Of a DNA stretch of 64,000 bases, positions 15,340 to 24,054 are shown one piece after another (positions within the stretch are counted from its first letter, which is position 1; each line of letters starts with the position of its first letter). The notes below the pieces were generated by a model. The model had not been told where the DNA came from and did not search any database. It saw nothing but the letters and a program-made list of their open reading frames with translations. The stretch is from Ferruginibacter sp. (GTDB lineage: Bacteria > Bacteroidota > Bacteroidia > Chitinophagales > Chitinophagaceae), in assembly GCA_025359625.1 (NCBI GenBank), contig JANYFT010000365.1, positions 1 to 64,000 on the forward strand. Direction: 5' to 3'. Position numbers and translations under genes: made by a program.

Positions 15340-16329
15340 TTAAACGATTCTTCCAATTCTTTGTTCAAGCAGCATCAGGTCTGCCAATACAAAAGCAGTA
15401 ACCGCTTCCAGCACAACTGGTACCCTTAGTGCTATGCACAAATCGTGTCTGCCTTTTACAGAAAAATCTTCTGTTTCTCCTGTTTCCACATTTAGTGTAT
15501 GCTGAATTTTTGGTGTAGAAGAAGTTGGTTTAATGGCAATACGAAAAACTAATTCGTTGCTGTTGGTGATACCGCCAACAACACCACCTGCATGATTGGT
15601 TACCGTTTTTCCATTACTGTTTTCTATAGCATCATTGTGCTCGCTGCCAAACATGCGGGCTGCTGCGAAGCCGGTTCCAAATTCAATACCTCTAACGGCG
15701 GGTATGGCAAACACTGCATGGCCAATCAATGATTCCGCTGAATCAAAAAATGGTTCTCCCAAACCTATGGGCAAGCCATTTACTTTACACTCTACAATGC
15801 CGCCGATGGTATCTTTTGCATCAATGGCTTTTTGCAAACCTACTTCTGTGTTAGCTTCACCACCTATTTCCAATATTGTTGCTGTAATATTTATTTCGGT
15901 CAACAATTTTTTTGCCACCACACCTGCCGCTACCAAACACACCGTCAGCCTTCCACTAAAATGTCCGCCACCCCTGTAATCTTCAAAGCCGCCAAATTTT
16001 TTGGTGGCAACAAAGTCTGCATGACCAGGTCTTGGTACCGCTCTTTGTTTTTCGTAATCGCCGCTTCTAGTGTTGGTATTATCAAATAAAATAGTGATGG
16101 GCGCACCGGTAGTTTTGCCATTGTAAACGCCATTCATTATTTTGGGAAGGTCAGCTTCCTTACGTGGCGTTGTTCCTTTGGCTCCTGCTTTTCTTCTATC
16201 AATATCAGTTGTAAAATCATCCACACTTAATGGCAAGCCTGCAGGGCAGCCATCAATATTAATGCCCACACATTCGCCATGTGACTCTCCAAAAATACTT
16301 ACCCTAAATATTCGTCCAAAACTGTTCAT
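15340..16329 (-). CDS. aroC: Chorismate synthase
   Basis: This enzyme makes chorismate from 5-enolpyruvylshikimate-3-phosphate with reduced FMN, the last step of the shikimate pathway. Signatures are GESHGECVGINIDGCPAG at the N-terminus, RPGHADFVATKKF, the catalytic-region DYRGGGHFSGR, and GGVVGGITNS. The ORF track starts at 16344, but I choose the ATG at 16329 (MNSFGRIFRVS) because family members begin there; MGNNY upstream is extra. The length of about 329 residues is on the short side for chorismate synthase but all motifs are present. It lies downstream of aroA with a gap of about 100 nt in the pheA-to-aroC series. Confidence 0.95.
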   Translation of the reverse strand: MNSFGRIFRVSIFGESHGECVGINIDGCPAGLPLSVDDFTTDIDRRKAGAKGTTPRKEADLPKIMNGVYNGKTTGAPITILFDNTNTRSGDYEKQRAVPRPGHADFVATKKFGGFEDYRGGGHFSGRLTVCLVAAGVVAKKLLTEINITATILEIGGEANTEVGLQKAIDAKDTIGGIVECKVNGLPIGLGEPFFDSAESLIGHAVFAIPAVRGIEFGTGFAAARMFGSEHNDAIENSNGKTVTNHAGGVVGGITNSNELVFRIAIKPTSSTPKIQHTLNVETGETEDFSVKGRHDLCIALRVPVVLEAVTAFVLADLMLLEQRIGRIV

Positions 16330-16429
16330 ATAATTATTTCCCAAGCCCTTTCAGAAAAAATCCGGATGTTCAAAAAAAGGCTTTTAGTTTATAATGATTT
16401 AAAGATACTTCTCATTGTTTAAAAATTTG

Positions 16430-17713
16430 TTATTGCGTAACCATCGCTCCCAGTATTTTCAAATGCTCATAAAATTCAGGATAAGATTTATTGATGGCTT
16501 CTGCGGCTTCGATAATGATTTCACCATCCGCTTTTAAACCGCCAACAGCACAAGCCATCGCAATACGATGGTCATGATGCGAATGAACCGTAGCACCATT
16601 TACTCCAGTACCTCCTTCAATCAACATCAGGTCATCCTGTAATTTTATAACAATGCCCATTTTACCAAATTCTTCCTGCAGGGTTAATCCACGATTGCTT
16701 TCTTTATGTACCAGCCTCTTAACACCTTCAATAACTGTGGTGCCATTGCAATAAGCTGCCAAAGCAACTAAGGGAGGAAAAAGATCCGGGCAATCTGTGG
16801 CATCAAAATGAAAAGGTTTTAAACCACTGTTTCCATTAGCCGGACTTCCAATATCAATTTGTTTTTCCTGGATAGAAATAGTGCTGCCGCAATCTATCAA
16901 TGCCTGCAAAATAGCTTTGTCGGCTTGTGTAGAAAATGTATCTAATCCTTTTACCGTGATTTGCCCGGCGATAGCGCCTGCTACCAGCAAAAATGCGCCC
17001 CCACTCCAGTCACCTTCAACTGTATAATCAATTGCCCGGTCAACTAAATTGTTAACTGGTTTTATAAGGAAAGATTCGTACTTGTTATTCGTAATATCAT
17101 AGCCAAAATGATTCATCACCTGCAAGGTTAAATCAATGTAAGGCTTACTCTTTAAATTAGTAACCGAAATGGTAACAGGTTGTGTAGCTGCTTTACCATA
17201 AGCCATTAGCAAGCCTGTTAAAAATTGAGAACTCAGCGATCCATCAATGGTTATATCCTTTGGTTGTAACGGCCCTTTTATTTTGATGGGTAGTTTACCT
17301 TTATTCGATTCAATAATGATATCCAGTTGCGGAAAAATTTCATCAAAAAAATCCATGGGTCTTGTTAGCAAACTCCCCGTTCCCTTTATAACGATTAGCT
17401 CTTTGCCCAAAGCAGCTATTGGTGTAAACATCCTGATCCCTAATCCACTTTCACCGCAGTTCATTTCATTGCTTACCGGCTGAACTCCCTTACTGGCAAC
17501 AATTAACCTGTTATTGACGGCTTCAGTTACTGTTGCTCCTAAAATTTTAATTACTTCCAACGCTGCAAGATCATCATTACTTTTTCCTGCATTCTCAATG
17601 GTAGTTTTTCCATTATGCAACAACGCCGCAGCACAAGCCCTTTGCATTGAACTTTTAGAAGTGGGCGCATTAACAGAGCCTGAAATAACTGAAGGCTGAA
17701 TGGTTACGATCAT
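16430..17713 (-). CDS. aroA: 3-phosphoshikimate 1-carboxyvinyltransferase (EPSP synthase)
   Basis: EPSP synthase transfers the enolpyruvyl group of PEP to shikimate-3-phosphate. The duplicated IPT-like fold is evident. N-terminal motifs are SVNAPTSKSSMQRACAAAL and NCGESGLGIRMFTPIAAL; C-terminal motifs are DATDCPDLFPPLVALAAYC, GVKRLVHKESNRG and HHDHRIAMACAVGGLK, with basic residues expected to hold substrate. I use the ATG at 17713 (MIVTIQPS) rather than the ORF start at 17752, since the extra 13 residues do not belong to the family. It sits between aroB and aroC on the same strand. The N-terminal substitution pattern (NAPTSKS instead of the common PGSKS) deserves note when judging inhibitor sensitivity class. 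Confidence 0.94.
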   Translation of the reverse strand: MIVTIQPSVISGSVNAPTSKSSMQRACAAALLHNGKTTIENAGKSNDDLAALEVIKILGATVTEAVNNRLIVASKGVQPVSNEMNCGESGLGIRMFTPIAALGKELIVIKGTGSLLTRPMDFFDEIFPQLDIIIESNKGKLPIKIKGPLQPKDITIDGSLSSQFLTGLLMAYGKAATQPVTISVTNLKSKPYIDLTLQVMNHFGYDITNNKYESFLIKPVNNLVDRAIDYTVEGDWSGGAFLLVAGAIAGQITVKGLDTFSTQADKAILQALIDCGSTISIQEKQIDIGSPANGNSGLKPFHFDATDCPDLFPPLVALAAYCNGTTVIEGVKRLVHKESNRGLTLQEEFGKMGIVIKLQDDLMLIEGGTGVNGATVHSHHDHRIAMACAVGGLKADGEIIIEAAEAINKSYPEFYEHLKILGAMVTQ

Positions 17714-17786
17714 AATTACTATCTGTATTTTCCAAACCGGGTAGCTGATCATCTGTCAAAAAAAAAGCTACTATGCGGTATTCATT

Positions 17787-18839
17787 TTAATGAATTAAAT
17801 TTTCCAGTTCGCTCATTGGGATGGGTTGTATTATAGCATGACCAATTGCATTCAACAGAATAAAATTCATGCTATTGCCCGCCCTCTTCTTATCCATCTT
17901 TAATACTTCCCATATTTTATCTTTATCAAAATCATATTGGGCAGGCAGATGGTATTTTTCCAAAAGTTGTTTTACTTTTTTCAAATCATCAGCCGAAAAA
18001 TTATTGATTGATGCTGATATATGGCAGGCAGCCATCATACCAATACTTACTGCATGGCCATGCGGCAACTGGTACATATTCTCTATGGCGTGCCCGAGGG
18101 TATGGCCAAAATTTAATAATTTCCTATCGCCCTTTTCGAACTCATCATTTACTACAACACTTGTTTTTATCTGCACATTTTTTTCAATCAACGCAGCCAG
18201 TTTATTTTTATCCAATTGAAAACTTTCTATTGATTCAGCCTCCAGCATTGCAAACATCTCTGCGTCTTTTATACAGGCATGCTTTATCACTTCTGCAAAA
18301 CCATTTATCCATTGATGATCGGGTAACGTTTTTAACAGGGCATAATCAAACAATAAAAATTCAGGTTGCTTAATAAGACCCACCAAATTTTTATAGATAC
18401 CGACATCAACGCCATTTTTACCACCGATAGAAGCATCTACCATTGCCAGTATGGTGGTAGGAATAAAACCAAATTTTACCCCACGCATATAGATACTGGC
18501 AGCATAGCCGGTTATATCCGTGACAACACCTCCGCCAATACCAACAATGAAAGTATTTCTGTCAGCATTTTTTGTAATGAGTTCCCCAATGATATAATCT
18601 ACGGTAGCCTGCTGTTTATGTTGCTCACCGGCAGGAAGCACAATGGTTTGCCAGCCACTAAATAATTGCCGGTGAATTTCAAATACATTTTCATCGGTAA
18701 TAAGAATGGTTTGTTGTTTAGAAACAATTTGTTCCAGGTAAGCAAACTCCGCATCAAAATAATAAACACCATTAAAATTGCCTCCCGATGGAAGCGCCTC
18801 TGAAGCACCCGCTAATGACGAAACTTTTATAACTTTCAT
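17787..18839 (-). CDS. aroB: 3-dehydroquinate synthase
   Basis: AroB converts DAHP to 3-dehydroquinate using NAD and a divalent metal. Motifs visible are VLPAGEQHKQ, GIGGGVVTDITGYAASIYMRG (NAD-binding glycine-rich loop), PTTILAMVDASIGGKNGVD, FAEVIKHACIKD, and LLNFGHTLGHAIENM with the metal-binding His residues, followed by HGHAVSIGM. The length of about 350 residues is normal. I prefer the ATG at 18839 (MKVIKVSS) over 18854. It is followed closely by aroA and preceded by the DAHP synthase gene, all on the minus strand. Confidence 0.95.
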   Translation of the reverse strand: MKVIKVSSLAGASEALPSGGNFNGVYYFDAEFAYLEQIVSKQQTILITDENVFEIHRQLFSGWQTIVLPAGEQHKQQATVDYIIGELITKNADRNTFIVGIGGGVVTDITGYAASIYMRGVKFGFIPTTILAMVDASIGGKNGVDVGIYKNLVGLIKQPEFLLFDYALLKTLPDHQWINGFAEVIKHACIKDAEMFAMLEAESIESFQLDKNKLAALIEKNVQIKTSVVVNDEFEKGDRKLLNFGHTLGHAIENMYQLPHGHAVSIGMMAACHISASINNFSADDLKKVKQLLEKYHLPAQYDFDKDKIWEVLKMDKKRAGNSMNFILLNAIGHAIIQPIPMSELENLIH

Positions 18840-18928
18840 AAAGCCAATCCTCAATAAAATAAAAAGCGTTAATAACTAAATCTCTTAAAAGTACCCCCGC
18901 AACAAGAAAAAAATGTAGCAGGATTACT

Positions 18929-20017
18929 TTAAGAATTCATCACTTTATTCTGATGGTTAATACTTTCCAAATGCACCGCATCAAAATACCTGGTAATAAA
19001 ATCCTGGCTTAAACCCAGTGCATCGCCTTTCTTAAAAGCTTTTTGTAAGATATCATTCCAGCGGTTGGTTTGTAAAATAGTGATATTATTAGCTCTTTTG
19101 TATTCACCAATTTTATCAGCAATTTTCATGCGTTGTGCAATCAAAGCCAGCAACTCATCATCTACATGGTTAATCTGCTCTCTCAGGGTAGCCAGTGCCG
19201 TTATGAACTCTTGTTTGTCTGTAGCTTCAGAACGCCAGATCAATGCATCCAGCATTTCTGCCAAACGCTCCGGGGTAATTTGTTGCTTGGCATCGCTCCA
19301 TGCATTGTCAGGATCAATATGGCTTTCAATCATCACGCCATCAAAATCAAGATCAATACTTTTTTGAGATACCGATTGCAAATTGGTCCTGTTACCGCAA
19401 ATATGTGAGGGATCACAAATCAAAATCATTTCAGGAAACCGCCGTTTCATTTCAATGGGCAAATGCCACATTGGTGCGTTACGGTATTCTGTATTTCCAT
19501 AGTTGGAAAATCCGCGATGGATCATACCTACTTGTTTAATACCTGCTTTCTGGATACGTTCAATAGCGCCAGTCCATAATTCAAGATCAGGATTAATAGG
19601 ATTTTTTATTAGCACCGGAATATCCACGCCACGCAGGGCATCTGCTACTTCCTGCACACTAAAAGGGTTCACAGTAGTTCTTGCACCAATCCATAACATA
19701 TCCACATCAAACTGTAATGCATCTTCCACATGTTTGGCGGTAGCCACTTCTACTGTAGTTGGCAGGCCAGTAATTTTTTTTGCCTGCAATAACCATGGTA
19801 ACCCTTTTGTACCGATACCTTCAAACAATCCGGGCTTGGTACGGGGTTTCCATATGCCAGCACGTAAAACATCTACCTTGCCTGTTTTAGCCAGTCTGGT
19901 AGCGGTTTCCAGCATTTGCGTTTCGGTCTCGGCACTGCATGGGCCGCTAATAATTAACGGGCGCTTTGCCCATTTTTCCTGCATTAACTCTTTCATTGTT
20001 TTGTTTTCTGTTTGCAT
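18929..20017 (-). CDS. Bifunctional DAHP synthase / chorismate mutase
   Basis: The protein joins the first committed step of aromatic biosynthesis to chorismate mutase. Residues up to about 260 form a type I beta/KDO8P-like DAHP synthase with PLIISGPCSAETETQ, LRAGIWKPRTKPGLFEGIG, IGARTTVNPFSVQEVADAL and LICDPSHICGNRT. The C-terminal about 95 residues form an AroQ-type chorismate mutase helix bundle beginning LREQINHVDDELLALIAQRMKIADKIGEYKR. The mutase end is expected to act as an allosteric sensor for prephenate or chorismate. I use the ATG at 20017 (MQTENKTMK); an ATG at 20044 is also possible. It follows tyrA and the GNAT gene after a 176-nt spacer that holds a small aromatic-rich ORF. Confidence 0.93.
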   Translation of the reverse strand: MQTENKTMKELMQEKWAKRPLIISGPCSAETETQMLETATRLAKTGKVDVLRAGIWKPRTKPGLFEGIGTKGLPWLLQAKKITGLPTTVEVATAKHVEDALQFDVDMLWIGARTTVNPFSVQEVADALRGVDIPVLIKNPINPDLELWTGAIERIQKAGIKQVGMIHRGFSNYGNTEYRNAPMWHLPIEMKRRFPEMILICDPSHICGNRTNLQSVSQKSIDLDFDGVMIESHIDPDNAWSDAKQQITPERLAEMLDALIWRSEATDKQEFITALATLREQINHVDDELLALIAQRMKIADKIGEYKRANNITILQTNRWNDILQKAFKKGDALGLSQDFITRYFDAVHLESINHQNKVMNS

Positions 20018-20056
20018 TGTAAAATTAGTTTTTGTTACCAACATTTATAATTCTAT

Positions 20057-20193: not shown

Positions 20194-20634
20194 CTACCTC
20201 CTGTTTAGCCATTCTTCATAACTCATCTCAAATTTTATTTCTTTTGTTCCATGCATGCCTGCTTCTTTCCATCCCTGCATTTCGTAAAATTTCGCTGCCC
20301 TTGTTTCAGGGCTTGTACCTAACCAAATTTTTTCTTTGTTATGTTCAAAATACCAGTCGAGCATAATATCATGCAATCTTTTTCCAATTCCCCTTTTTTC
20401 AAAATCCGGATGAACAAACAAAGCCCAGATATTGTGGTCTTTCAAATCAACAATAGAAAAACCAACTACAACATTATTTGTCAAACAAACCCAGCCCTTA
20501 CCACGGTTAAATAAATATGCTTCGCAATCAGCATCAGTAATCAAGGCAGGGTTGCTTAACCTATTTTCCTTTACTGCATTTCTTACAACCTGTATTTGTT
20601 TTATATCATCAATGTGTGTTTCCCTAAAAATCAT
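20194..20634 (-). CDS. GNAT-family N-acetyltransferase
   Basis: The 146-residue protein has the GNAT fold. The first strand is MIFRETHIDDIKQIQVVRNAV, the central strands include GWVCLTNNVVVGFSIVDL and NIWALFVHPDFEKRGIGKRLHD (the acetyl-CoA pyrophosphate loop with the RGIGKRL signature), and the late segment is YEMQGWKEAG. The start overlaps the tyrA stop by 4 nt (ATGA), so the two are translationally coupled within the aromatic operon. The substrate is unknown; its location could reflect simple hitchhiking or modification of an amino-acid-like metabolite. Confidence 0.85.
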   Translation of the reverse strand: MIFRETHIDDIKQIQVVRNAVKENRLSNPALITDADCEAYLFNRGKGWVCLTNNVVVGFSIVDLKDHNIWALFVHPDFEKRGIGKRLHDIMLDWYFEHNKEKIWLGTSPETRAAKFYEMQGWKEAGMHGTKEIKFEMSYEEWLNRR

Positions 20635-21563
20635 TGCAAAATTCTTTTTATCTTGTTTGCATTCTCCATCAACTCTACCAGATACTCCAGGTTCTCTTTT
20701 TCAAGGCTTGCTTTAAATTTTCTTAACTGCGAAATATGTTCGTTTAATACATCCAGTACATTCTCCCGGTTCTGCATAAAAATGGGCGCCCACATGGCAG
20801 AGTTACTTTTTGCCAAACGAACCGTACTTTCAAAACCACCACCAGCCAGCGCAAAAATAGCATCATCTTCCTTCTCTTTTTCCAATACTGTATTCGCCAA
20901 TGCAAAAGAAGTAATGTGCGATATATGGCTAATGTATGCTGCATGAATATCATGGCTATGTGCATCCATATAAACGATGTTCATGCCAAACGATTTGTAA
21001 ATATTTTCAACACACTTTACAACATCTGCATCGGTTTTTTCTTTTTCACAAATAACGCAAGCCCTTCCTTCAAAAGCTCCTCTCACCGCAGCTTCCGGGC
21101 CACTGTATTCCGTTCCCCACATCGGGTGCGTTGCGATAAAACGGTGGCGCATCGGATGGTCTTTTAATGCATCGCACAAAACAAATTTTGTGGAGCCTGC
21201 ATCAGCTACCATTTGTTTATCCGTTAGCAGATCCATTATTTGTTTCATTACCACCACAGTGGCATCTACCGGAATTGCAACGTAAATAAAATCACTTTGC
21301 TTTACTGCTTCGGCCAATGGCAATGCTTCATCAATTATACCAAGCTCCTTTGCTTTTTGCAAACTTGTTTCGGTTTTGCTTACACCAATTAGTTTTTTTG
21401 CAAAACCTTTTTCCTTCATGGCCAAAGCAAATGAACCGCTTATTAATCCCACGCCTACTATGGTTACAATTAATCCTTCTATTTTCTCCCCGACAGGCAA
21501 AGATCTTTCAGCCGTTGATTGTGTCTGGATCTTTTGTTTAGTGACAGGTTCCTTACTTTCCAT
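20631..21563 (-). CDS. tyrA: Prephenate dehydrogenase
   Basis: This enzyme oxidatively decarboxylates prephenate to 4-hydroxyphenylpyruvate on the tyrosine branch. The NAD-binding motif IVGVGLISGSFALAMKEKG is near residue 36, followed by FIYVAIPVDATVVVMKQI, VADAGSTKFVLCDAL, and the catalytic FIATHPMWGTEYSGP containing the conserved His. The helical C-terminal domain has HDIHAAYISHISHITSFALAN. There is no ACT or chorismate-mutase fusion; the mutase is on the DAHP synthase downstream. The first about 30 residues before LIVTIVG are atypical, so a later start is possible. It lies between the aminotransferase and the GNAT gene. Confidence 0.93.
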   Translation of the reverse strand: MESKEPVTKQKIQTQSTAERSLPVGEKIEGLIVTIVGVGLISGSFALAMKEKGFAKKLIGVSKTETSLQKAKELGIIDEALPLAEAVKQSDFIYVAIPVDATVVVMKQIMDLLTDKQMVADAGSTKFVLCDALKDHPMRHRFIATHPMWGTEYSGPEAAVRGAFEGRACVICEKEKTDADVVKCVENIYKSFGMNIVYMDAHSHDIHAAYISHISHITSFALANTVLEKEKEDDAIFALAGGGFESTVRLAKSNSAMWAPIFMQNRENVLDVLNEHISQLRKFKASLEKENLEYLVELMENANKIKRILQ

Positions 21564-21610: not shown

Positions 21611-22840
21611 TTACAATATTTTTTTAATCCGCTCATTGGCTTCTGTTATTTTTTCTACACTGCTGCACAAACTTACCCTTACATATTTATCGCCTGCACT
21701 ACCAAAAATTCCGCCAGGGGTAATAAATACATTCGATTCATACAATATTTTATCACTCAGTTCATAACCGTCTTTATATCCATTCGGGATGGCTGCCCAC
21801 ATAAACAATCCAGCCTGCTTTTCATCAAAACTACATTGCAGCAATTGTAGCAATTCAATTACTTTCTCCCGTCTTGCCCTGTACACTTTATTTACTTCGG
21901 TATGAAAGTCTTCATTCAATTGCAATGCTTTGGCCGCCGCTAACTGCAAGGGCAAAAACATACCACTGTCCATATTGCTTTTAAACCGAAGTACTTCATC
22001 AATCCTTTCTTTAGCACCAGCCAGCAAACCAATACGCCAGCCCGCCATGTTATGCGATTTACTTAATGAATTCAATTCTATGGCCACGTCTTTCGCCCCA
22101 TCAACACTTAATAAACTCAAAGGCTCATCATTTAAAATAAAACTATAGGGATTATCGTGTACCAATAAAATCTGGTGTTTTTTAGCAAAGGCTACCAGTT
22201 GTGTAAACAATTCTTTTGTTGGTAACTGTCCCGTTGGCATTTGCGGATAATTTACAAACATCAGCTTCACCTTTTGCAGATCTGTTTTTTCCAGCGCTTC
22301 AAAATCAGGGTACCAATTATTTTCTTTTGTTAGCGTGTACTCCACCACGTTACCACCTGCAATCTTTGCAGCACTTTTGTAAGTTGGGTATCCTGGATTG
22401 GGAATCAATACACCATCGCCTTCATTTACATACGTCATACAAATATGCATGATACCTTCTTTGCTCCCGATTAACGGCAATATTTCTGTATCTGCATTTA
22501 GGATTACATCATACCAATTTTTATACCAGTCACTCACTGCCTTTCTCAGTATCGGGCTGCCTTTATAATTCTGGTATCCATGTTGGTTAGGCTTTATCGC
22601 CTCTTCATGTAATGTCTTAATCACCTCCGGGTTCGGTGGTATATCAGGGCTCCCAATACCCAAATTAATAACCTGTTTGCCGGCCTTGTTCATATCATCT
22701 ATCTCTCTCAGTTTTTGAGAAAAATAATATTCACCAATACCTTCCAATCGCTTTGCTACGTCCATCTGTAAAACGGTGCCCGTTACTAAAGGAGATAGTT
22801 TGGAAGCTGCTGGTATTTTAGAAATTGTTTCGTTGTTCAT
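21611..22840 (-). CDS. PLP-dependent aminotransferase class I/II, likely aromatic/aspartate-type
   Basis: The 409-residue fold-type I aminotransferase has the motifs INLGIGSPDIPPNPEVI, IPNPGYPTYKSAAKIAGG, MFVNYPQMPTGQLPTKE (with the Asn-Pro region altered to Tyr-Pro-Gln), LLVHDNPYSFIL and the PLP-binding Lys in LNSLSKSHNMAGWRIGLLAG. Its location between pheA and tyrA suggests it transaminates phenylpyruvate and 4-hydroxyphenylpyruvate, giving Phe and Tyr. By sequence it could equally be an aspartate, methionine or LL-diaminopimelate-type aminotransferase. It is 41 nt downstream of pheA. Confidence 0.85.
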   Translation of the reverse strand: MNNETISKIPAASKLSPLVTGTVLQMDVAKRLEGIGEYYFSQKLREIDDMNKAGKQVINLGIGSPDIPPNPEVIKTLHEEAIKPNQHGYQNYKGSPILRKAVSDWYKNWYDVILNADTEILPLIGSKEGIMHICMTYVNEGDGVLIPNPGYPTYKSAAKIAGGNVVEYTLTKENNWYPDFEALEKTDLQKVKLMFVNYPQMPTGQLPTKELFTQLVAFAKKHQILLVHDNPYSFILNDEPLSLLSVDGAKDVAIELNSLSKSHNMAGWRIGLLAGAKERIDEVLRFKSNMDSGMFLPLQLAAAKALQLNEDFHTEVNKVYRARREKVIELLQLLQCSFDEKQAGLFMWAAIPNGYKDGYELSDKILYESNVFITPGGIFGSAGDKYVRVSLCSSVEKITEANERIKKIL

Positions 22841-22881: not shown

Positions 22882-23817
22882 TCATGCCAGACTTTTTGAA
22901 ACGGCTGCCTGAATTGATGAAGCAGGAGTGGAAAGATGCTTACCATTTTTATACACTCCATATATTTTTACTTCTTCTGTAATGGGTTCTATCTTTTTAA
23001 TCACTTTATAAAATTGTTCAACACTATCAAACTCAACATCTGCGTGAAAAGAATATTTAAAGTCGCTGCCCGGGATAGGGAATGATTGCAATTTACTCAG
23101 GTTTATTCCAGCATCAGCAATTTTGGTAAGCACTTTAGCCAGGCTGCCTTTTGAATGATCGGTATGAAAGTTAATAGAAGCTTTGTCGGCGTCAATAATT
23201 TCTTTAAAGTCTCCGGCTCTTTGCAATATTAAAAAGCGGGTGTAATTATTTTTAAGCGTATGAATATTAGGCGCAATAATATCAAGATCATAAATTTCTG
23301 CGGCCAGCTTGCTTGCTATTGCAGCCACATGCTTGCTGCGGTGCTGGTGTACTTGTTTGGCGCTAAGTGCCGTATCTTCTTTCTCTACCAGTTTCCAATT
23401 GTATTTATCTAAAAAACCAAAGCATTGCTGAATGGCCATAGGGTGAGAATGTACTTCATTGATGTCTGCCAATTGCACACCTGGGTTTACCATTAAATGC
23501 TGGTTGATCTGTAAATAAACTTCGCCAATAATAGTAAGATCGCTTTTTTGCAATAAATTGTAATTTGGTAAAATGCTGCCGGCAATAGAATTTTCTATGG
23601 CCATTATGCCTCCATTACTTTGCATTTTATCGCTGGCAATATTTATCACTTCACGAAAAGTAGAGCAGCAAACAACTTCCACATTTTTGCCGAAAAAATG
23701 CCTTGCTGCTTCCTGGTGAAAACATCCTTCAAAGCCTTGTATAGATACTTTATGCCCACTTCCGTTCCCGGTGTTATTTGTATCAGTAATATTGCCGGAA
23801 TTGTGCTGATTGCTCAT
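22882..23817 (-). CDS. pheA: Prephenate dehydratase
   Basis: Prephenate dehydratase makes phenylpyruvate on the phenylalanine branch. The 311-residue protein has the PDT domain beginning VSIQGFEGCFHQEAARHFFG, the segment GGIMAIENSIAGSILPNYNLL, and the catalytic TRF motif in LKNNYTRFLILQRAG. A C-terminal ACT domain with KGSLAKVLTKIADAGINLSKLQSFP is expected to bind Phe for feedback inhibition. It is the first structural gene of the pheA-to-aroC operon. An intrinsic terminator that can be replaced by an antiterminator lies about 60-90 nt upstream and follows a Phe/Tyr-rich leader peptide, so transcription attenuation is very likely. Confidence 0.95.
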   Translation of the reverse strand: MSNQHNSGNITDTNNTGNGSGHKVSIQGFEGCFHQEAARHFFGKNVEVVCCSTFREVINIASDKMQSNGGIMAIENSIAGSILPNYNLLQKSDLTIIGEVYLQINQHLMVNPGVQLADINEVHSHPMAIQQCFGFLDKYNWKLVEKEDTALSAKQVHQHRSKHVAAIASKLAAEIYDLDIIAPNIHTLKNNYTRFLILQRAGDFKEIIDADKASINFHTDHSKGSLAKVLTKIADAGINLSKLQSFPIPGSDFKYSFHADVEFDSVEQFYKVIKKIEPITEEVKIYGVYKNGKHLSTPASSIQAAVSKSLA

Positions 23818-23876
23818 TTACCACTAATTTAAATAGCTGTCTTTATATATATTGTTCTTTATGTCTTAGCTATAAA

Positions 23877-23905
23877 CAAAAATCCCGACCTATTTAGCCG
23901 GGATT
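23877..23905 (-). terminator. Attenuator terminator of the pheA operon
   Basis: The minus strand reads AATCCCG-N11-CGGGATT followed by TTTG TTT: a 7-bp perfect stem extended by wobble pairs, with a T-rich tail, located between the leader peptide and pheA. Its 5-prime arm plus the preceding bases (AAAAGAATCCCG) can instead pair with CGGGAGTCTTTT at the end of the leader ORF, 11 of 12 positions. This makes it a conditional rather than constitutive terminator. Confidence 0.85.
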
Positions 23906-23940
23906 CTTTTTATGTTAATCTGTTTTTATTTTTTCAGTGC

Positions 23941-24015
23941 TTAACAAAAGACTCCCGTTCTATTTTTAAAATAGAAACTAAAATAAAATCGGGTGTTTGT
24001 TGTTATATTTTTCAT
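23941..24015 (-). CDS. Phe/Tyr-rich leader peptide of the aromatic operon (pheL-like)
   Basis: A 24-codon ORF too short for the ORF track starts at ATG 24015 and ends at TAA 23941. Residues 9-16 read RFYFSFYF: four Phe and two Tyr codons in seven consecutive positions after Arg, with another Phe near the end. It begins just downstream of a promoter and lies upstream of pheA with a terminator between them. Four segments can alternate: segment 1 (ACACCCG, before the F/Y codons), segment 2 (CGGGAGTCTTTT, last codons), segment 3 and segment 4 (terminator arms). Ribosome stalling on F/Y codons would free segment 2 to pair with segment 3. This is the textbook arrangement of ribosome-mediated attenuation. 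Confidence 0.85.
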   Translation of the reverse strand: MKNITTNTRFYFSFYFKNRTGVFC

Positions 24016-24023
24016 TTGAAAAT

Positions 24024-24054
24024 CGAAAGTAGGGCAATAAATTGAATCAGCCAA
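24024..24054 (-). promoter_or_regulatory. Promoter of the pheA attenuator-aromatic operon
   Basis: On the minus strand TTG (24052-24054) is followed after 20 nt by TACTTTCG (24024-24031), one mismatch from TAnnTTTG. The predicted start lies only a few bases before the leader ATG, so the leader peptide message would be nearly leaderless. Confidence 0.65.

Follow-up and report, generated by a model that had tools for sequence, protein, structure and literature searches.

A Phe/Tyr-codon leader and probable transcription attenuator ahead of the aromatic amino acid operon in Ferruginibacter and its relatives

Results

The DNA analysed here, a 64,000-nucleotide (nt) stretch of a Ferruginibacter sp. 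genome (contig JANYFT010000365.1, positions 1 to 64,000; hereafter the window), carries on its minus strand an aromatic amino acid operon that begins with pheA and is preceded by a leader region with the parts of a ribosome-mediated attenuator. All features described below lie on that strand. The predicted promoter is of the Bacteroidota sigma-A type, with a TTG at −33 (24052..24054) and, 20 nt from it, a −7 box TACTTTCG (24024..24031; consensus TAnnTTTG), which puts the predicted transcription start at about 24019 and leaves a predicted 5′ untranslated region (UTR) of about 4 nt. The open reading frame (ORF) that follows encodes the 24-codon leader peptide MKNITTNTRFYFSFYFKNRTGVFC and a stop codon (23941..24015), and contains the putative regulatory codons R-F-Y-F-S-F-Y-F (23968..23991), at whose edge lies a CCCG termed segment 1 (23990..23993). 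Segment 2, the antiterminator 5′ strand CGGGAGTCTTTTGTTAA (23941..23957), is located within the last leader codons; it begins 10 nt past the last Phe codon, and the distance from there through the stop codon is 17 nt. Beyond the ORF lies segment 3, the antiterminator 3′ strand TTAACATAAAAAGAATCCCG (23899..23918), whose AATCCCG doubles as the 5′ arm of an intrinsic terminator hairpin formed by segments 3 and 4 (AATCCCGGCT-AAATA-GGTCGGGATT; 23881..23905); an A-rich spacer separates the ORF from this hairpin. A U-tract (23874..23880) follows, and 63 nt separate the end of the hairpin from the ATG of pheA (23817). A separate terminator-like hairpin (24168-24149) is found between the upstream gene and the leader promoter. 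The initial annotation of this stretch had placed the promoter, ORF and hairpin pieces where we find them; the terminator that it described before pheA is present, with a stem of 10 base pairs (bp), two of them G-U, instead of the 7 bp it gave.

The operon starts with pheA, encoding prephenate dehydratase (22882..23817; Pfam PDT, 188 bits; the best NCBIfam match, also prephenate dehydratase, is under its cut-off), and continues with a class I aminotransferase gene (21611..22840, assigned by family search and gene order), tyrA for prephenate dehydrogenase (20631..21563; NF006307, 357.6 bits, cut-off 295), a GNAT-family acetyltransferase-like gene (20194..20634), aroG for a 3-deoxy-D-arabino-heptulosonate 7-phosphate (DAHP) synthase-chorismate mutase fusion (18929..20044, family search), aroB for 3-dehydroquinate synthase (17787..18854; TIGR01357, 339.8 bits), aroA for 5-enolpyruvylshikimate-3-phosphate (EPSP) synthase (16430..17752; TIGR01356, 323.3 bits) and aroC for chorismate synthase (15340..16344; NF003793, 358.2 bits). 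The complete order pheA-aminotransferase-tyrA-(GNAT)-aroG-aroB-aroA-aroC was recovered at 49 of the 58 loci with enough sequence, which bears out the earlier assignment of a pheA-to-aroC operon behind the leader. Because this order is conserved, a single leader with Phe and Tyr codons precedes the genes for the entry into the shikimate pathway and for the two terminal branches. The GNAT gene occurs in only part of the relatives: at 16 of the 58 related loci it is inserted between tyrA and aroG.

To follow the leader through the family, we examined the DNA upstream of the PheA orthologues present in 105 of 150 Chitinophagaceae genomes; adding 80 named loci gave a set of 185. The nearest named genomes belong to Ferruginibacter (PheA identity 82-86%). 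A Phe/Tyr-rich short ORF and, downstream of it, a hairpin ending in a T-rich tail were detected at 101 of the 105 family loci, and one of the four loci scored negative by the script, L080, also bears leader and hairpin on inspection. Upstream ORFs with at least 6 Phe, Tyr or Trp codons per 10 were present in 179 of the 185 regions, compared with 3.5% of 3,700 dinucleotide shuffles and 9 of 185 regions read on the opposite strand. A conserved short ORF of this kind upstream of pheA in Chitinophagaceae, the outcome set beforehand for the attenuator reading, is thus what the family loci display. All 151 distinct leaders contain both Phe and Tyr. Their codon totals (TTT 509, TTC 221, TAT 267, TAC 225) reflect runs that alternate among leaders between TTT and TTC, between TAT and TAC, and between Phe and Tyr, and the peptide varies towards its N terminus, with no conservation outside the Phe/Tyr run.

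Two further observations concern the leaders themselves. Trp codons interrupt the Phe/Tyr run in 23 of the 151 distinct leaders, and in several other families as well (FWFYF, TYFWFYP); Trp may perhaps be sensed too. At L095 and L096, two full Phe/Tyr attenuators stand in tandem, about 390 to 50 nt ahead of the PheA core; each has a leader peptide and a terminator of its own, and the first leader also contains a Trp codon.

The 161-nt leader of the window folds with a z-score of −4.77, and none of 200 shuffles folded equally well. Within it a helix of CGGGAGTCTTTT and AAAAGAATCCCG can form, and it extends through GTTAA/TTAAC to the full strands of segment 2 (23957-23941) and segment 3 (23918-23899), giving a 2:3 duplex of −16.8 kcal/mol (shuffle mean −6.0). 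Across loci the 2:3 duplex averaged −19.1 kcal/mol against −7.4 with segment 2 shuffled, and at 90 of 101 loci it was better than all 30 shuffles.

We counted covariation in gapless blocks anchored on sequence alone, using 63 dereplicated loci and 1,000 shuffles. Anchored blocks were chosen because length variation of 1 nt inside segment 2 breaks the MAFFT register; a formal count on the MAFFT alignment, in which half of the sequences were out of register, was dropped. Cells changed on both sides of the pairing numbered 23 for 2:3 (shuffle mean 8.0, maximum 15) and 38 for 3:4 (shuffle mean 7.4, maximum 15), with 0 of 1,000 shuffles as high in either case; since sequence relatedness inflates such counts, they serve as support and not as probabilities. 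Shifting the register lowered pairing from 78.5% to at most 66.4% for 2:3, and from 96.1% to at most 67.5% for 3:4. Individual examples include CTGAGGC/GCCTCAG (L100), CTGAGGT/GCCTCAG (L102) and CAGGG/CCTG (L086). In the second half of the antiterminator, GTTGA occurs 33 times with TCAAC and never with TTAAC, while GTTAA occurs 20 times with TTAAC and once with TCAAC. Both covarying pairings foreseen for Chitinophagaceae were therefore found; the alternative 2:3 pairing had been proposed in the initial annotation, which overlooked its final conserved part, GTTAA or GTTGA.

The core of segment 2, CCGGGA, is encoded as PGMLLL, SRVVFA, PGCFC or SRDCFC, and lies in three reading frames relative to the Phe/Tyr codons (87, 29 and 14 leaders), therefore being conserved as RNA and not as peptide. 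Its distance from the codon run is narrowly kept: it begins 9-13 nt past the last Phe or Tyr codon in 134 of 142 leaders, and at exactly 10 nt in 80. Median distances across leaders were 10 nt from the last Phe/Tyr codon to segment 2 and 24 nt from the start of segment 2 to the end of the stop codon. Judged by established footprints, a stalled ribosome holding a Phe or Tyr codon in its A site would reach to just short of segment 2, and a ribosome positioned on the stop codon would lie over that segment. Segment 1 had been proposed as the partner of segment 2. Its CCCG is conserved among the closely related Ferruginibacter leaders, not family-wide, and in the fold of the window it pairs with segment 4, not with segment 2.

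An exact TAnnTTTG box is present upstream of 115 of the 151 distinct leaders (3.4% of shuffles), in most cases 4-10 nt from the ATG, and 107 of 143 leaders with a −7 box have a TTG within the −33 zone. Given a box at −12 to −5 relative to the transcription start, as the Flavobacterium psychrophilum transcriptome report places it (PMC9723704), box position predicts a 5′ UTR of about 0-6 nt in Chitinophagaceae leaders. The box is this close to the start in 81 of 98 leaders with a strict −33/−7 pair, compared with 1 of 13 ordinary ORFs of at least 200 amino acids at the same loci; in other families of the class it is mostly 15-35 nt away. A near-leaderless start had earlier been described as generally suited to Bacteroidota, a view that does not agree with the 5.5% of leaderless mRNAs stated for F. 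psychrophilum in the same report (PMC9723704). Because leaderless mRNAs are rare there and the box is farther off in other families, near-leaderless initiation, as predicted from promoter and start, is a special and conserved trait of the Chitinophagaceae leader.

Outside the family we applied a looser rule, at least 5 Phe, Tyr or Trp codons plus a hairpin. Of 56 readable loci from other families of the class, 38 were positive; the 2:3 duplex beat shuffles in 29 class loci outside the family, and at least one locus, L109, looks like a chance match. One family (f13) was uniformly negative. In other classes of the phylum the leader was seen at four loci (L307, L311, L322, L323), in each case with a Bacteroidia-type PheA, and the remaining scorable loci tested there had no leader. 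Since in those classes the leader occurs only with PheA of this type, the pattern suggests that operon and attenuator travel together, possibly by co-transfer.

Comparable leaders precede other amino acid operons of the same genus. Those before hisG contain HHHH and are followed by terminators (MKKITHIHHHHLLPTGKLC at L169; MKQIVHIHHHHTLPQG and MNINNKHHHHLPIG at L167 and L170); the region upstream of hisG in the window's genome lies beyond the contig end. Leaders upstream of trpE (L171-L174 and L176) have 2-3 adjacent Trp codons after an Asn-rich part (NNNSWWW) and are likewise followed by terminators, as in MKMINTNNNGWWWSIVK (L172), which has WWW. The window's own genome (L175) shows no Trp leader within 1.5 kb of trpE; a different ORF, GxxExxY-like by eye, stands directly before the gene. 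Ile/Val-rich leaders such as IKNIAIIIIVVLVITIPVANG, followed by terminators, precede ilvD in the window's own genome (L183) and at L182 and L184. In a quick test, the antiterminators of the His, Trp and Ile/Val leaders were less clear. When a covariance model of segments 2-4 was run on the window's genome, it matched the window element and the ilvD leader, followed for the most part by ordinary terminators, so that this test revealed no second Phe/Tyr leader.

Thr/Ile-rich short ORFs (TTTFTTGTTR, TIITTITIR) also occur upstream of thrA (L286, L287, L289, L290), with a short GGTTGTA-type repeat behind them. We do not claim these as attenuators, since a proper intrinsic terminator was not found behind the ORFs.

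Discussion

We interpret the leader as a ribosome-mediated transcription attenuator that would sense charged tRNA-Phe and tRNA-Tyr before pheA, and from the available sequences we regard this as very probable. Sequence and comparison give us the leader and its codons, the terminator, the covarying antiterminator, the spacing, the promoter match and the gene order; from them we infer leader translation, stalling, termination and its relief, and the transcription start. Transcription would begin 0-6 nt upstream of the leader AUG, with a ribosome loading at the 5′ end of the RNA. With both tRNAs charged, the ribosome would reach the stop codon and cover segment 2, the 3:4 terminator would form and transcription would stop before pheA. 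If tRNA-Phe or tRNA-Tyr were uncharged, the ribosome would stall in the Phe/Tyr codons, and segment 2, lying just beyond its footprint, would stay free and pair with segment 3 before segment 4 is made; RNA polymerase would then continue into pheA-aminotransferase-tyrA-aroG-aroB-aroA-aroC. In our folding model the antiterminator formed at 173 of 178 loci while segment 4 was still unmade, and the terminator won at most of them afterwards.

Three observations weigh against this interpretation. First, equilibrium folding favoured the terminator at 165 of 178 loci even with the footprint of a stalled ribosome masked. The proven pheL leader of E. coli behaved in the same manner under the same masking, so that antitermination must be kinetic in the loci studied here as in E. 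coli. We rejected equilibrium folding as proof of a switch, the terminator being favoured in nearly all ribosome states, E. coli pheL included. Second, the 1:2 pairing was better than shuffles (p ≤ 0.05) for just 26% of leaders, and the classic 1:2 protector does not appear to be general. Third, a gap of 149 nt before aroG in the window could hold a second promoter. Because of this gap, the presumed control of the distal genes by the attenuator is less certain than that of pheA-tyrA.

A first alternative keeps the attenuator as described and adds a released leader RNA or peptide that acts in trans, like peTrpL/rnTrpL of Sinorhizobium meliloti, where short, near-leaderless RNAs, rnTrpL among them, are translated and act in trans (PMC7298713). 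We consider such an added role improbable, since the peptide has no conserved part outside the codon run; candidate targets were neither found nor sought. Other leader peptides can arrest ribosomes, and translation of a leader near the start of an operon would permit modes of action other than stalling at uncharged tRNA, namely nascent-peptide arrest, Rho-dependent polarity or control of pheA translation. We hold these modes improbable too, given a peptide unconserved outside the Phe/Tyr run, a segment 2 conserved as RNA in three frames, a conserved switch that includes an intrinsic terminator, and the agreement, within the genus, of His, Trp and Ile/Val leaders with the amino acid of their own operon. 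Least credible of all is a constitutive terminator yielding a short RNA, with the Phe/Tyr-rich ORF as by-product of U-rich sequence: the region is rich in A and T, the bases of which Phe and Tyr codons are made, but the codon score is matched by only 3.5% of dinucleotide shuffles and 9/185 reverse strands, codons vary synonymously while Phe and Tyr are kept, and a constitutive terminator would not need a covarying antiterminator or a fixed spacing to the codon run.

It is rather likely that ribosome-coupled attenuation is an ancient and general control of amino acid operons in Bacteroidia, which make little use of Shine-Dalgarno sequences. The Chitinophagaceae leader, at the extreme 5′ end of its RNA, would be loaded by a ribosome immediately and the ribosome would stay coupled to RNA polymerase; the phylum would in that case have conserved a strict coupling of transcription to translation, at least where operons begin. 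Selection on the codon run, the spacing and the covarying strands across many Bacteroidota families is strong evidence of ribosomes close behind RNA polymerase. The leader also offers a ready Phe/Tyr sensor for a phylum that matters in soils and in the gut, and it can serve as the starting point of an Rfam family and of the annotation of hundreds of so far unannotated leader genes.

Comparison with known systems

When the 64-kb window was searched with Rfam, only tRNAs reached the gathering score, and there was no T-box or riboswitch match. The best match to the leader stretch was Phe_leader (RF01859), over its full length at 27.7 bits, below the gathering score of 55; six relatives gave likewise sub-threshold scores of 29.3-36.6 bits. 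The leader resembles E. coli pheL-pheA (RF01859) in its run of Phe codons, its terminator before pheA and its behaviour in the folding model, and the antiterminator strand begins at a similar distance past the last Phe codon (8 nt in E. coli, 10 nt in the window). Unlike pheL, the window leader would sense both Phe and Tyr, has a predicted near-leaderless promoter and the whole aromatic operon behind it, and holds the antiterminator strand inside the leader ORF instead of after the stop codon. With E. coli trpL and hisL it shares the general four-segment logic, and analogous WWW and HHHH leaders exist in the window's genus; it differs from both in amino acid and operon, and the 1:2 protector does not appear to be a general part of it.

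Earlier predictions may exist in a comparative study from 2010 by Lopatovskaya and others (cited in PMC4833913). Most documented cases of classic attenuation are from Proteobacteria and Actinobacteria; a 2010 survey listed leader-peptide systems only in those two phyla, plus its own hisS case in Firmicutes (PMC2965389). The 2021 F. psychrophilum transcriptome report presents strong clues for leader-peptide attenuation at amino acid operons, with signs at pheA, and a structured pheA 5′ element conserved in Flavobacteriaceae (PMC9723704). Its main text is without a leader sequence, Phe/Tyr sensing, covariation or reach past Flavobacteriaceae, whereas we find homologous leaders class-wide, which are presumably the same element. 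The S. meliloti trpL attenuator transcript likewise begins at or adjoining its start codon (PMC7298713), but it is a Trp leader of Alphaproteobacteria with unrelated sequence. The mechanism proposed here is thus of a known kind, classic ribosome-mediated attenuation. The apparently new points are the evolutionary proof, the sensing of both Phe and Tyr over a whole operon, the near-leaderless layout and an implied coupling of transcription to translation; the antiterminator strand within the ORF and the wide distribution are also distinctive.
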